NCBI RefSeq assembly: GCF_024809975.1
Contig: NZ_JANUDY010000001.1
Span: forward strand, 310,001 to 374,000
Origin: Comamonas sp. BIGb0152
GTDB lineage: Bacteria > Pseudomonadota > Gammaproteobacteria > Burkholderiales > Burkholderiaceae_C
Direction: 5' to 3'
DNA length: 64,000 bases
Program-made: the position numbers and the translations under genes
The notes under the pieces: model-generated
What the model was told of the DNA's origin: nothing
The model's input: only the letters and a program-made list of their open reading frames with translations
Databases searched by the model: none
Shown here: piece after piece, positions 30,501-34,593 of the stretch
Position numbering within the stretch: position 1 is the first letter of the stretch
Layout of the letters: every line of letters starts with the position of its first letter

Positions 30501-32951
30501 TTACACCACCGTCAGCTTGGCCACCGACAGCGCCAGCCACTTGGTGCCGTGGCGCGGAAAGTTGACCTGGGCGCGGGCATCGTCGCCGCTGCCTTCAACG
30601 GCCAGCACCTTGCCCTCGCCGAACTTGTTGTGGAAGACATTGGCGCCCTTTTTGATGCCATGCGCAGGCTCGGCCTTTTGCGCCGGCACGGGGGTCTTGC
30701 CCCACATGCTGGGGGCCGCATCGCCATAACCGCCGCCGCTGGACGAACGGCCACCGCCGCCGCCATAAGCCAGACTGCCCATGCCGCTGCCAAAGCCCGA
30801 ATGCTTGGGTGACAGCCACTTGAGCGCCTCTTCGGGCAGCTCATCAAGAAAGCGGCTGCGCACGTTGTAGCGCGTGGTGCCATGGAGCATGCGGGTCTGC
30901 GAGGTACTCAGGTACAGGCGGTTGCGCGCCCGGGTGATGGCGACATACATCAGGCGGCGCTCTTCTTCGAGCCCGCCGGTGTCGGTCATCGCGTTCTCGT
31001 GCGGGAACAGGCCTTCTTCCAGCCCGCCGATAAACACCACATCAAATTCCAGCCCCTTGCTGGCGTGCACCGTCATCAGCTGTACGGCATCCTGGCCGGC
31101 TTGCGCCTGGTTGTCGCCAGCCTCCAGCGCGGCATGGGTCAGGAAGGCCACTAGCGGCGACAAGGTCTCGCCGGTATCGGGGTTCACCATGGCCGGATTG
31201 GCGGCATCGGGCAGCTGGATATCGAGCGCTGGCGCATCCGGGTCCAGCCCCTGGCTGACGGGGCTTTGCCCGCTGCCTGGCACGCCCATGGCCTGCTGCT
31301 CATCCAAGGGGATGGCCACGGCATCCTTGCCAAAGCCCTCCTGGGTGACAAAGCTCTCTGCCGCCGTGACCAGTTCACCCAGGTTGTCAATGCGGTCCGC
31401 GCCTTCTTTTTCACTCTGGTAGTGCTCGATCAGGCCGCTCACCACCAGCATGCGCTCGATGGTCTCGCGCAAGGTCTTGCCCTGGGTTTCCTCACGCAGC
31501 ACATCCACCATCGCGACAAAGGACTGCAGCTTGGTGCCTGCCTTGCCAGCTACGGCGGTCACTGCGTCGTACAAGGAGCAGCCGGCGGCCTGCGCCCCTT
31601 CTTGCAACTGCTCGGTGGTGCGGGCGCCAATGCCGCGCGGCGGAAAGTTCACCACCCGCATAAAGCTGGTGTCGTCGTGCGGGTTCTCCAGCAAGCGCAG
31701 ATAGGCCAGCGCATGCTTGATTTCCGCCCGCTCGAAAAAGCGCAGCCCGCCGTACACGCGGTAGGCCACGCCGGCATTGAACAGGCTGGTTTCCAGAATC
31801 CGGCTCTGGGCATTGCTGCGGTAAAGCACGGCGATCTCGCTGCGCGCCACGCCATCGCTTTTGACCAGCGACTTGATCTCCTCGACCATCCACTGCGCCT
31901 CGGCCATGTCGGTCGCGCTCTCGGACACGCGCACCGGCTCGCCCGGGCCCTGGTCGGTGCGCAGGTTCTTGCCCAGGCGGTTGCTGTTGTGGCTGATCAG
32001 CGCATTGGCGCTGTCAAGAATATTGCTGTAGCTGCGGTAGTTCTGCTCCAGCTTGATCTGCTGGCGCACATCGAACTCACGCACAAAATCCTGCATATTG
32101 CCCACGCGCGCACCCCGGAAGGCGTAGATGCTCTGGTCGTCATCGCCCACCGCAATCACGCTGCTGTGCGACTGGAACTGGCCACCCACCATGTCGCCGG
32201 CCAGCTGCTTGAGCCAGAGGTACTGCAGGCGGTTGGTGTCCTGGAACTCGTCGACCATCATGTGGCGAAAACGGTGCTGGTAGTGCTGGCGGATGGGGAG
32301 GTTGTCGCGCAGCAGCTCGTAGGAGCGCAGCATCAGCTCGCCAAAATCCACCACGCCCTCGCGCAGGCATTGCTCTTCATAGAGCTGGTACAGCTCCACC
32401 TTCTTGCGCTCGGCCATGTCGCGCGCCTGCACATCCGAGGGGCGTAGGCCCTCTTCCTTGCAGCCGCTGATGAAATACTGCAGCTGCTTGGGCGGCAGCG
32501 CTTCTTCGTCCACCTGGAACTGCTTGCACAGGCGCTTGACCGCCGAGAGCTGGTCTTGCGTGTCCAGGATCTGGAAGGCCTGGGGCAGGTTGGCCGATTT
32601 GTAATGCGCCCGCAGCATGCGGTTGCACAGACCGTGGAAGGTGCCAATCCACATGCCGCGCACATTGATGGGCAGCATGGTCGACAGGCGGGTGAGCATC
32701 TCTTTGGCGGCCTTGTTGGTGAAGGTCACCGCCAAGATGCCGCCAGGCGTGGCGCGGCCGGTCTGCAGCAACCAGGCAATGCGCGTGGTCAGCACCCGGG
32801 TCTTGCCCGAGCCGGCGCCGGCCAGAATCAAGGCATGGCCACCCTCCAAGGTGGCAGCGGCCAGCTGCTCGTCGTTAAGGCCATTGAGAAGCGGCAATTG
32901 CCCCGTGCTACCCGCGCCAGACGGCAGCGCAAACAAATCATTCGAATCCAT
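30501..32951 (-). CDS. uvrD: UvrD/Rep/PcrA-type DNA helicase
   Basis: Superfamily 1A 3'-5' helicase of 816 residues for excision and mismatch repair and for clearing proteins from DNA. Visible motifs: GLNDEQLAAA (Q motif), Walker A GAGSGKTRVLTTRIAWL, FTNKAAKEM, GTFHGLCNRMLR, DEFQDTNRLQYLW, VGDDDQSIYAFRGA, LEQNYRS, and MTVHASKGLEFDVVFIGGLEEGLFPHE with VAITRARNRLYL near the C-terminus. After these comes a Gly/Ser-rich linker and a C-terminal HNKFGEGKVL domain typical of UvrD/PcrA. PcrA and UvrD cannot be separated by eye. Confidence 0.93.
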   Translation of the reverse strand: MDSNDLFALPSGAGSTGQLPLLNGLNDEQLAAATLEGGHALILAGAGSGKTRVLTTRIAWLLQTGRATPGGILAVTFTNKAAKEMLTRLSTMLPINVRGMWIGTFHGLCNRMLRAHYKSANLPQAFQILDTQDQLSAVKRLCKQFQVDEEALPPKQLQYFISGCKEEGLRPSDVQARDMAERKKVELYQLYEEQCLREGVVDFGELMLRSYELLRDNLPIRQHYQHRFRHMMVDEFQDTNRLQYLWLKQLAGDMVGGQFQSHSSVIAVGDDDQSIYAFRGARVGNMQDFVREFDVRQQIKLEQNYRSYSNILDSANALISHNSNRLGKNLRTDQGPGEPVRVSESATDMAEAQWMVEEIKSLVKSDGVARSEIAVLYRSNAQSRILETSLFNAGVAYRVYGGLRFFERAEIKHALAYLRLLENPHDDTSFMRVVNFPPRGIGARTTEQLQEGAQAAGCSLYDAVTAVAGKAGTKLQSFVAMVDVLREETQGKTLRETIERMLVVSGLIEHYQSEKEGADRIDNLGELVTAAESFVTQEGFGKDAVAIPLDEQQAMGVPGSGQSPVSQGLDPDAPALDIQLPDAANPAMVNPDTGETLSPLVAFLTHAALEAGDNQAQAGQDAVQLMTVHASKGLEFDVVFIGGLEEGLFPHENAMTDTGGLEEERRLMYVAITRARNRLYLSTSQTRMLHGTTRYNVRSRFLDELPEEALKWLSPKHSGFGSGMGSLAYGGGGGRSSSGGGYGDAAPSMWGKTPVPAQKAEPAHGIKKGANVFHNKFGEGKVLAVEGSGDDARAQVNFPRHGTKWLALSVAKLTVV

Positions 32952-33029
32952 GCCGCCATTGTAGGGAGATCAGCCAGGGCCAGCATGCCCGCGCGGCGCT
33001 GACGCATACTGCAGCGGCTGCCAAGGCTT

Positions 33030-33057
33030 TTGCAAAGCCGGCGCATGCTGCTAGAAT
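33030..33057 (+). promoter_or_regulatory. Promoter of guaC
   Basis: TTGCAA (33030-33035), 16-base spacer, TAGAAT (33052-33057), with TG at 33049-33050 making an extended -10. This predicts a start near 33064, right at the base of a terminator-like hairpin. Confidence 0.65.
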
Positions 33058-33062
33058 CAGTC

Positions 33063-33097
33063 ACCGGGCCCAAGTTTCTTGTGACCCGGTTTTTTTG
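33063..33097 (+). terminator. Terminator-like hairpin at the start of the guaC leader (candidate attenuator)
   Basis: ACCGGG (33063-33068) pairs with CCCGGT (33085-33090); inside, CAAG/CTTG makes a second stem, and a run of eight T follows. No gene on the plus strand upstream needs a terminator here, so regulation of guaC is the likely purpose. TCAC (33061-33064) and GTGA (33081-33084) can form a competing helix. Confidence 0.6.
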
Positions 33098-33157
33098 CGC
33101 CTGCAACAGCGCAATCCAGGACCTTCCGATGCGAAGTGCTCCCCCAAAAAGCCGGTC

Positions 33158-33217
33158 TCCAAGCCAAGCGCCCCATCACCGCGAAATAGTTTGCGGTGAC
33201 CTTTCATGGAGCTTGGA
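33158..33217 (+). promoter_or_regulatory. Structured 5' leader of guaC with ribosome-site pairing
   Basis: TCCAAGC (33158-33164) can pair with GCTTGGA (33211-33217), which overlaps the ribosome-binding region before the ATG at 33223. Enclosed is a second perfect stem, TCACCGC/GCGGTGA (33176-33182 with 33193-33199). This resembles a switchable, translation-controlling leader. I do not recognise a known riboswitch class. Confidence 0.45.
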
Positions 33218-33222
33218 ATCAA

Positions 33223-34200
33223 ATGGAAATCTTCGACTACGACAACATTCTTTTGCTGCCCCGCAAGTGCCGCGTGGAAAGCCGCTCGGAATGTGACGCC
33301 AGCGTCGTGCTCGGCAACCGCACCTTCCGCCTGCCGGTGGTGCCTGCCAACATGAAGACGGTGCTGGACGAGAAGATCTGCAAGTTTTTGGCGCAACACG
33401 GCTACTTCTATGTGATGCACCGCTTTGACATCGACAACCTGGCCTTCACCAAGGCCATGCAGTCGCAAGGCCTGTTCGCCTCCATCTCGCTGGGCGTCAA
33501 GCAAGCAGACTACGAGGTAGTCGACCGCTTTGTGGCCGACGACATCTGCCCCGAATACATCACCATCGACATTGCCCACGGCCATGCCGACAGCGTGAAG
33601 AACATGATCGGCTACCTCAAAGAAAAGCTGCCCGAGGCCTTTGTGATCGCCGGCAACGTGGCCACCCCCGAGGCCGTGATCGACCTGGAAAACTGGGGCG
33701 CCGATGCCACCAAGGTGGGCGTGGGCCCGGGCAAAGTCTGCATCACCAAGCTCAAGACGGGTTTTGGCACCGGCGGCTGGCAGCTGTCGGCGCTCAAGTG
33801 GTGCGCGCGCGTGGCGACCAAGCCCATCATTGCCGACGGCGGTATCCGCAGCCATGGCGACATCGCCAAGAGCATCCGCTTTGGCGCCACCATGGTGATG
33901 ATCGGCTCGCTGTTTGCCGGCCATGAAGAGTCGCCCGGCAAGACGGTCGAGCTCGACGGCGAGCTGTTCAAAGAGTACTACGGCTCGGCCAGTGACTTCA
34001 ACAAGGGCGAGTACAAGCACGTCGAAGGCAAGCGCATCCTCGAACCCATCAAGGGCAAGCTGCAAGACACCTTGATCGAGATGGAGCAGGATGTGCAGTC
34101 TTCCATCAGCTATGCAGGCGGCAAGCAGCTGATGGACATCCGCAAGGTGAACTATGTGATCCTGGGCGGCGACAATGCCGGCGAACATCTGCTGATGTAA
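33223..34200 (+). CDS. guaC: GMP reductase
   Basis: Converts GMP to IMP with NADPH and release of ammonia, returning guanine nucleotides to the adenine branch. The 325-residue protein has no CBS domains and carries the catalytic Cys173 in [11 protein letters not shown], followed by [12 protein letters not shown] dehydrogenases have a different sequence after the cysteine. [15 protein letters not shown] supplies the phosphate site. The ATG at 33223 was chosen because residues [13 protein letters not shown] open the family; the upstream start at 33196 lies inside the leader structure. Confidence 0.94.
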
Positions 34201-34374: not shown

Positions 34375-34450
34375 GGGCTCTTAGCTCAGTTGGTAGAGCA
34401 GCGGACTCTTAATCCGTTGGTCGAGTGTTCGAATCACTCAGGGCCCACCA
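34375..34450 (+). tRNA. tRNA-Lys (anticodon CUU), copy 1
   Basis: 76-base cloverleaf with encoded CCA. Acceptor GGGCTCT pairs with AGGGCCC (one G-U), D-arm TAGCTCAGTTGGTAGAGCA, anticodon loop CTCTTAA with CTT, and T-loop TTCGAAT. Identical to the copy 143 bases downstream. Confidence 0.97.
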
Positions 34451-34517: not shown

Positions 34518-34593
34518 GGGCTCTTAGCTCAGTTGGTAGAGCAGCGGACTCTTAATCCGTTGGTCGAGTGTTCGAATCACTCAGGGCCCACCA
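34518..34593 (+). tRNA. tRNA-Lys (anticodon CUU), copy 2
   Basis: Identical to copy 1 over all 76 bases including the CCA end. The 67-base spacer differs from the flanks of copy 1. It is followed by a strong terminator, so both are probably one transcript. Confidence 0.97.

Follow-up and report, generated by a model that had tools for sequence, protein, structure and literature searches.

A candidate riboswitch-like leader of an undescribed class, with predicted ligand binding, precedes guaC in Comamonas sp. BIGb0152

We analysed a stretch of 64,000 nucleotides of the Comamonas sp. BIGb0152 genome (the window), in which a conserved leader lies directly upstream of guaC, the gene of GMP reductase. 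The gene was assigned by the protein models NF003966 (593 bits) and TIGR01306 (542.8 bits), both over cut-off, and the closest named GuaC proteins were those of Comamonas koreensis and Comamonas sp. JUb58 (99%). A helicase gene upstream of the leader is on the minus strand; thus, no plus-strand gene needs a terminator here, as a preliminary description of this DNA had stated. Two tandem tRNA genes with an equal Rfam score (72.7 bits each) were located just 3' of guaC, at 34375-34447 and 34518-34590. From the predicted transcript start onward, the guaC leader can be read as four strands, A, B, C and D, and the features used below were as follows.

30501-32951, minus: UvrD/Rep-type helicase gene, which scores under the uvrD equivalog cut-off
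33030-33057, plus: promoter-like site, TTGCAA (33030-33035) and extended -10 TAGAAT (33052-33057); 9 of 12 matches in a promoter scan
33063-33074, plus: strand A, ACCGGGCCCAAG, with the predicted P1 5' side GGGC (33066-33069) and loop strand CCAA (33070-33073); conservation in 172 leaders
33063-33090, plus: terminator-like A:B hairpin, ACCGGG (33063-33068) with CCCGGT (33085-33090) and inner CAAG/CTTG; -13.3 kcal/mol
33078-33096, plus: strand B (CTTG..CCCGG), the 5' side of P2, and a T-run of 7 T (33090-33096); T-run counts and P2 covariation
33146-33163, plus: 5' part of strand C, AAAAAGCCGGTCTCCAAG, the 3' side of P2, which rivals strand A for B; P2 permutation and swap tests
33158-33164, plus: TCCAAGC, complementary to GCTTGGA (33211-33217) over the ribosome site (C:D)
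33164-33173, plus: C core, CCAAGCGCCC, with loop strand CAAGC (33165-33169) and the predicted P1 3' side GCCC (33170-33173); conservation in 172 leaders
33176-33199, plus: stem-loop P3, between C and D; nearest-relative swaps
33208-33217, plus: strand D, GGAGCTTGGA, Shine-Dalgarno GGAG (33208-33211) and anti-C sequence
33223-34200, plus: guaC, GMP reductase

The promoter scan placed a -35-like TTGCAA or TTTGCA within 33029-33035, and the extended -10 claimed earlier was present, with TG preceding TAGAAT. The distance from the -10 to ACCGG was exactly 5 nt in 117 of 117 leaders, those with at least 30 nt of upstream sequence. Judged from the -10 spacing, the transcript would start at about 33063-33064, and because this spacing is fixed at 5 nt, the predicted start is the first base of the hairpin. 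No start-site map of these bacteria was among the papers listed by a literature search. The preliminary description had also placed a terminator-like hairpin with eight T directly after the promoter; the hairpin was found there, and the T count was 7. A simple terminator scan of the window, which admits loops of 3-8 only, listed none. Compared with shuffled sequences, the window hairpin gave z -2.08 (5 of 200 shuffles equally good) and the whole window leader z -1.97 (9 of 200); the single-sequence folding case was marginal. The observation was settled by comparison, since the same elements recurred in 172 unique guaC leaders with a constant -10 spacing.

For this comparison, 232 distinct guaC upstream regions were assembled from the best GuaC matches and from chosen draws, which makes the sample non-random. 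Both conserved strands were present in 174 regions; the other 58, four of which came from other families, did not have both. Four loci (L214, L235, L242 and L280), in which the script detected no start codon, were left out. Statistics refer to 172 unique strand sets, or to 76 once near-copies were removed.

Strand A and the C core were near-invariant in the 172 unique leaders; both were located by patterns, which in itself accounts for some of their conservation. Strand A with its preceding base read CACCGGGCCCAAG in 147 leaders and CACCGGGCCCAAA in 14. Strand C has the form AAAAAGCCGG..CCAAGCGCCC, and its core was CCAAGCGC[CT]C in 139 of 172. The 5' arm of 23 leaders that carry the hairpin alone offered a more independent sign of A conservation: GGGCCCAA occurred in none of them, so the inner sequence of A was gone where C was gone.

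These strands have several pairing options, A with B, C or D, and C with A, B or D. The B:C pairing is P2 and the A:C pairing is P1 (GRGC:GCYC), and together they enclose the conserved CCAA/CAAGC loop. This is the main feature added to the preliminary description: the arms of the hairpin are predicted to be able to leave each other for a strand further downstream, enclosing a conserved internal loop. The second position of P1 was never broken (G-C in 76, G-U in 90 and A-U in 6 of 172 leaders), the fourth was broken in two leaders and the first in one. The bases at the end of A and at the start of the C core (33074:33164) were G-C in 157 leaders and A-U in 15, with no mixed case. On a GuaC tree (75 rows, midpoint root), the deepest drawn split separated the A-type leaders (8) from the G-type leaders (43), which indicates that this change represents one or few events. 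With few changes to go by, P1 and the 33074:33164 pair are supported, if thinly. An extra conserved GCAG followed GCTC in 12 of the 15 A-type leaders, and six A-type leaders (L194, L195, L198, L199, L207 and L210) carried long hairpin-like inserts within the P2 loop; the inserts and the GCAG are perhaps another expression platform.

The spacer between A and C was shortest in L216 (13 nt) and measured at least 108 nt in the longest case, L194; its ends pair to form P2. Permutation tests were run on 74 of the 76 non-redundant leaders, two with spacers below 26 nt being left out. The P2 strands paired better with their own partners (-15.8 kcal/mol) than with swapped ones (-13.3 kcal/mol); the permutation z was -9.9, with none of 20000 permutations as low, and a control with one strand reversed gave z -1.7 or -1.8. 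A z of -5.3 was obtained for P2 in 13 very divergent leaders. Strands were also swapped between nearest relatives, which lessens the effect of shared ancestry. Own P2 strands were better in 48 of 84 pairs, worse in 11 and tied in 25 (p 1.2e-6), and the control with a reversed strand gave 33 better, 28 worse and 23 tied. The second stem described earlier, P3, was confirmed with 7 perfect pairs and 3 more near the loop, and its swaps were better in 48 of 85 pairs, worse in 15 and tied in 22 (p 3.8e-5). The preliminary description had staked its proposal beforehand on covariation in the stems, and such covariation was present for both P2 and P3.

The A:B helix had at least 5 pairs in 167 of 172 leaders, and its own strands outperformed swapped ones with a permutation z of -5.6, a value obtained without a reversed control. 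A run of at least 5 T followed in 149 of the 172 core leaders and was missing in 23. The T-run is probably selected, yet dispensable; since it is missing in 23 leaders, a terminator cannot be the whole mechanism.

The preliminary description had proposed a stem over the ribosome site. TCCAAGC and GCTTGGA are indeed complementary and overlap GGAG; what proved weak was the covariation of this predicted C:D pairing. Nearest-relative swaps for C:D gave 42 better, 25 worse and 17 tied (p 0.05; control 40, 29 and 15), and the permutation z was -4.4 (control -2.2). Strand D contained GCTTGG in 34 of 74 leaders and CTTG in 52. Complementarity between the C core and D exceeded that of shuffles at the 5% level in 43 of 74 leaders; the figure for A:D was 25 of 74, and that for the control B:D was 2 of 74. 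The longest-helix counts for C:D were set aside because the B:D control was equally high. The covariation test of A:D gave no signal (permutation z -0.2), which is expected if A, being near-invariant, cannot vary. Taken as predictions, the A:B and C:D pairings are supported, if thinly.

Folding energies were computed for eight leaders, and in all eight the forced core was less stable than the fold with a separate hairpin and the OFF pairing, by 3.9 to 14.6 kcal/mol. In the window the two folds were at -48.2 and -52.1 kcal/mol, a gap of 3.9, and the largest gap was that of L050. In an ON switch, the core should be a minority fold that the ligand stabilises. The larger modelled gaps would exceed the usual ligand payment and would be hard to pay for, so that help from the order of folding or from tertiary contacts would be needed. 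The unconstrained minimum-energy fold of the window (-53.3 kcal/mol) had P2 formed and A paired over the ribosome site; in the model this fold may be a further OFF-like state.

Several relatives appeared to separate the parts of the leader. Three leaders (L057, L082 and L176) kept A, P2 and the C core and had neither a 5-pair A:B helix nor a T-run, and the predicted core is the part that they retained. The opposite was seen in 26 of the 58 regions that do not have both strands: the -10, an immediate hairpin and a run of at least 5 T were kept. In two of these 26, L270 and L285, the leader is long and a diverged C may be present. About 24 relatives had the start-site hairpin and T-run alone, without the A sequence. 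In the 23 hairpin-only leaders, own arms paired better than swapped arms (z -9.6); the reversed control shifted too (z -4.7), so part of this arm-pairing signal is composition. In one locus (L130, genome G042), strand A, the hairpin and the T-run were kept, C was lost and the start codon lay 15 nt past the T-run; it can be read as a natural deletion of the proposed switch. The hairpin-only leaders (L174, L180, L186-L188, L190, L192, L201, L203, L206, L208, L221-L223, L225, L226, L233, L234 and L236-L240) consisted of the -10, an immediate GC-rich hairpin, the T-run and an ATG 9-58 nt past the T-run.

We searched genomes with R1, a covariance model of the core with P1 as its sole structure. R1 matched the window at 61.4 bits, and the next match in the rest of the genome (4,999,318 bases, 22 contigs) reached 20.7 bits (E 0.16). 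At E 0.001, R1 matched 239 of 399 family genomes, once per genome; this is an undercount, since 15 of the 66 guaC regions inspected from genomes missed by R1 hold both strands in diverged form. By hand count, GuaC (E up to 1e-60) was found in 318 of the 399 genomes, and the motif in 237 of these 318; among the 81 that gave no such GuaC match, two fragmented assemblies (G110 and G321) had it. A scan of the order gave matches in 49 of 399 genomes at E 0.1; the 13 best all precede guaC, one of them from another family (G569). The order-scan loci fetched past the best 13 had no GuaC match, and the six weaker loci inspected (L132-L137) were judged by eye to be terminators or chance. The class scan found the motif in two of 185 genomes, each belonging to the own family. 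In the phylum scan, 5 of 150 genomes matched; three belonged to the own family, and the other two gave weak matches (29.6 and 27.7 bits) that by eye looked like chance or an ordinary terminator. Four GuaC genes of other families with 78-83% identity (L155, L156, L157 and L159) lacked the motif, and 16 pattern matches in viral contigs had no guaC. Across the own genome, the family, order, class and phylum scans and the viral contigs, no other gene was found under the motif. No conserved start codon of a leader peptide was apparent by eye.

A search of the window at gathering cut-offs against the 4227 families of Rfam 15 gave no match to the leader. At E up to 5, the guaC leader gave one chance match, to a human lncRNA family, and six other loci searched at E up to 1 gave two weak matches, outside the leader or far under cut-off. 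A microRNA model at positions 224-255 of L204, overlapping strand A there, was rejected (24.2 bits against a cut-off of 90), as was a weak 6S match outside the leader at positions 2505-2684 of L057. No guaC or GMP-reductase RNA motif was apparent among the papers listed by the literature searches, and the terms 'guaC' and 'GMP reductase' were absent from the main texts of PMC8632094, PMC11109978, PMC6429828, PMC2864571 and PMC7266159.

Intrinsic-terminator attenuators combine a GC-rich hairpin and a following T-run with an alternative pairing of a hairpin arm. The guaC leader resembles them in its stable hairpin, in the T-run that follows at once in 149 of 172 leaders and in the alternative pairing of the arms. 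Unlike theirs, its pairing partner C (from 33146) is transcribed after the T-run has ended at 33096, and because the competitor strand is made after the T-run, the classic order of antitermination is reversed; the 23 leaders that lack the T-run differ as well. The nearest known mechanism appears to be that of the HMP-PP riboswitch (thiS motif), whose aptamer lies almost wholly within the terminator stem (PMC6478431). As in that riboswitch, the terminator-like hairpin of the guaC leader, with its U-run, would share strands with a small aptamer fold, the two being mutually exclusive, and the terminator loop is unusually conserved. Unlike in the HMP-PP riboswitch, the guaC hairpin has its first base near +1, with its partner strand C 3' of the T-run; its output is more likely at the ribosome site, the gene and the conserved sequence differ, and Rfam gave no match. 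Membership in the HMP-PP class was rejected because the gene was guaC in the loci checked, not a thiamin-precursor gene, and by conserved sequence, gene and layout the guaC leader stands outside that class. Known purine-sensing riboswitches, listed in PMC9295807 and PMC8266621, include those for guanine/adenine, xanthine (NMT1) and 2'-dG. The guaC leader is like them in its leader position and purine-pathway target gene, and unlike them in having no covariance-model match to any Rfam family.

Sequence comparison establishes the conserved strands, the covariation of P2 and P3 and the attachment to guaC. Of the earlier reading, a regulatory leader acting as an attenuator or riboswitch, the part that stands is thus a conserved regulatory RNA leader on guaC. 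Two marks of a riboswitch are present: an mRNA leader whose core is conserved and structured, with helices that covary, and a consistent link to a gene of one pathway (the 13 best order matches, and GuaC in 237 of 239 family genomes with the motif). We favour, at somewhat better than even confidence, a cis-acting riboswitch-like guaC leader of a class not in Rfam 15, in which a ligand would drive the exchange of arms. The leader probably senses a small molecule, most likely a purine, and opens or closes the ribosome site. GuaC converts GMP to IMP, so excess guanine nucleotide should switch guaC on; since GMP is what GuaC consumes, a guanine compound, for instance GMP or guanine, is the probable ligand.

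In the proposed mechanism, the A:B hairpin would form first, as the polymerase leaves the promoter. In the absence of ligand, C, enclosing P3, would pair with the ribosome site and guaC would be translated little (OFF); in leaders with a T-run, part of the transcripts may in addition end near +34. In the presence of ligand, A:B would be given up, P2 would form between B and C and P1 between the GRGC of A and the GCYC of C, and the CCAA/CAAGC loop would serve as the ligand pocket. With C so occupied, the ribosome site would be free (ON). We infer the ON/OFF direction, ligand binding and ligand identity. More tentatively, as a doubtful specific form, the leader may be a new guanine nucleotide or base riboswitch, GMP being the first guess, that turns guaC on by swapping both arms of a first-base terminator hairpin into a CCAA/CAAGC aptamer; several lineages would have dropped the aptamer and kept the start-site attenuator.

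With the motif before one gene only, gene-specific control of another sort could operate. The two conserved strands are short enough to be a binding site, and a trans-acting factor, either an RNA-binding protein or a small RNA, might recognise the CCAAG/CAAGCGC strands and drive the switch with no metabolite bound. C:D and A:D complementarity would also serve such control, and the motif controls guaC alone in the genomes examined. We consider this unlikely, as the covarying P2 and the potential P1 hold the strands opposite each other in the manner of a folded pocket. Comparably improbable to us is that the start-site hairpin with its T-run is the working part, as a leaky terminator or a 5' stem that determines how much guaC mRNA there is or how long it lasts, and that the downstream strands tune translation without any ligand. 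Such a role agrees with the 26 of 58 regions that keep the -10, the hairpin and at least 5 T without both strands, with the mutual pairing of the arms in the 23 hairpin-only leaders (z -9.6) and with the frequency of the T-run (149 of 172). It leaves unexplained the near-invariance of A and the C core and the covariation of P2, and it meets the three leaders that keep the core without hairpin and T-run; moreover, the reversed control of the arm test shifted too (z -4.7).

Strand A, one of the best conserved stretches, overlaps the predicted start, as would a DNA operator for a transcription factor with the RNA pairings secondary. We regard such an operator as very improbable: the inner sequence of A is lost where C is lost and the hairpin kept, the other conserved block is some 90 bp distant in the window, a spacing that varies in other leaders, and the covariation of P2 and P3 is an RNA signature. 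If the ligand-driven exchange of arms is true, the guaC leader would join the orphan riboswitch candidates; its target, an enzyme that consumes GMP, is well defined, and the list of likely ligands is short. Its layout, in which both arms of a hairpin at the first transcribed base would go into the proposed ligand pocket, would be unusual. Relatives with only the hairpin, or without it, would serve as natural deletions for telling the role of the terminator from that of the core, and the control of guaC in these bacteria would become directly testable.

A different attenuator-like leader was observed 5' of GuaC homologues of 48-50% identity in L160, L163, L164 and L165 (family f28) and L168 (f5). 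A search of these leaders against Rfam gave none above cut-off and a sub-threshold match only, on the opposite strand of L163. Their layout was an upstream stem, a terminator-like hairpin GGGAGCC..GGCTCCCG or similar, a T-run and then ATT(T)GGGG.
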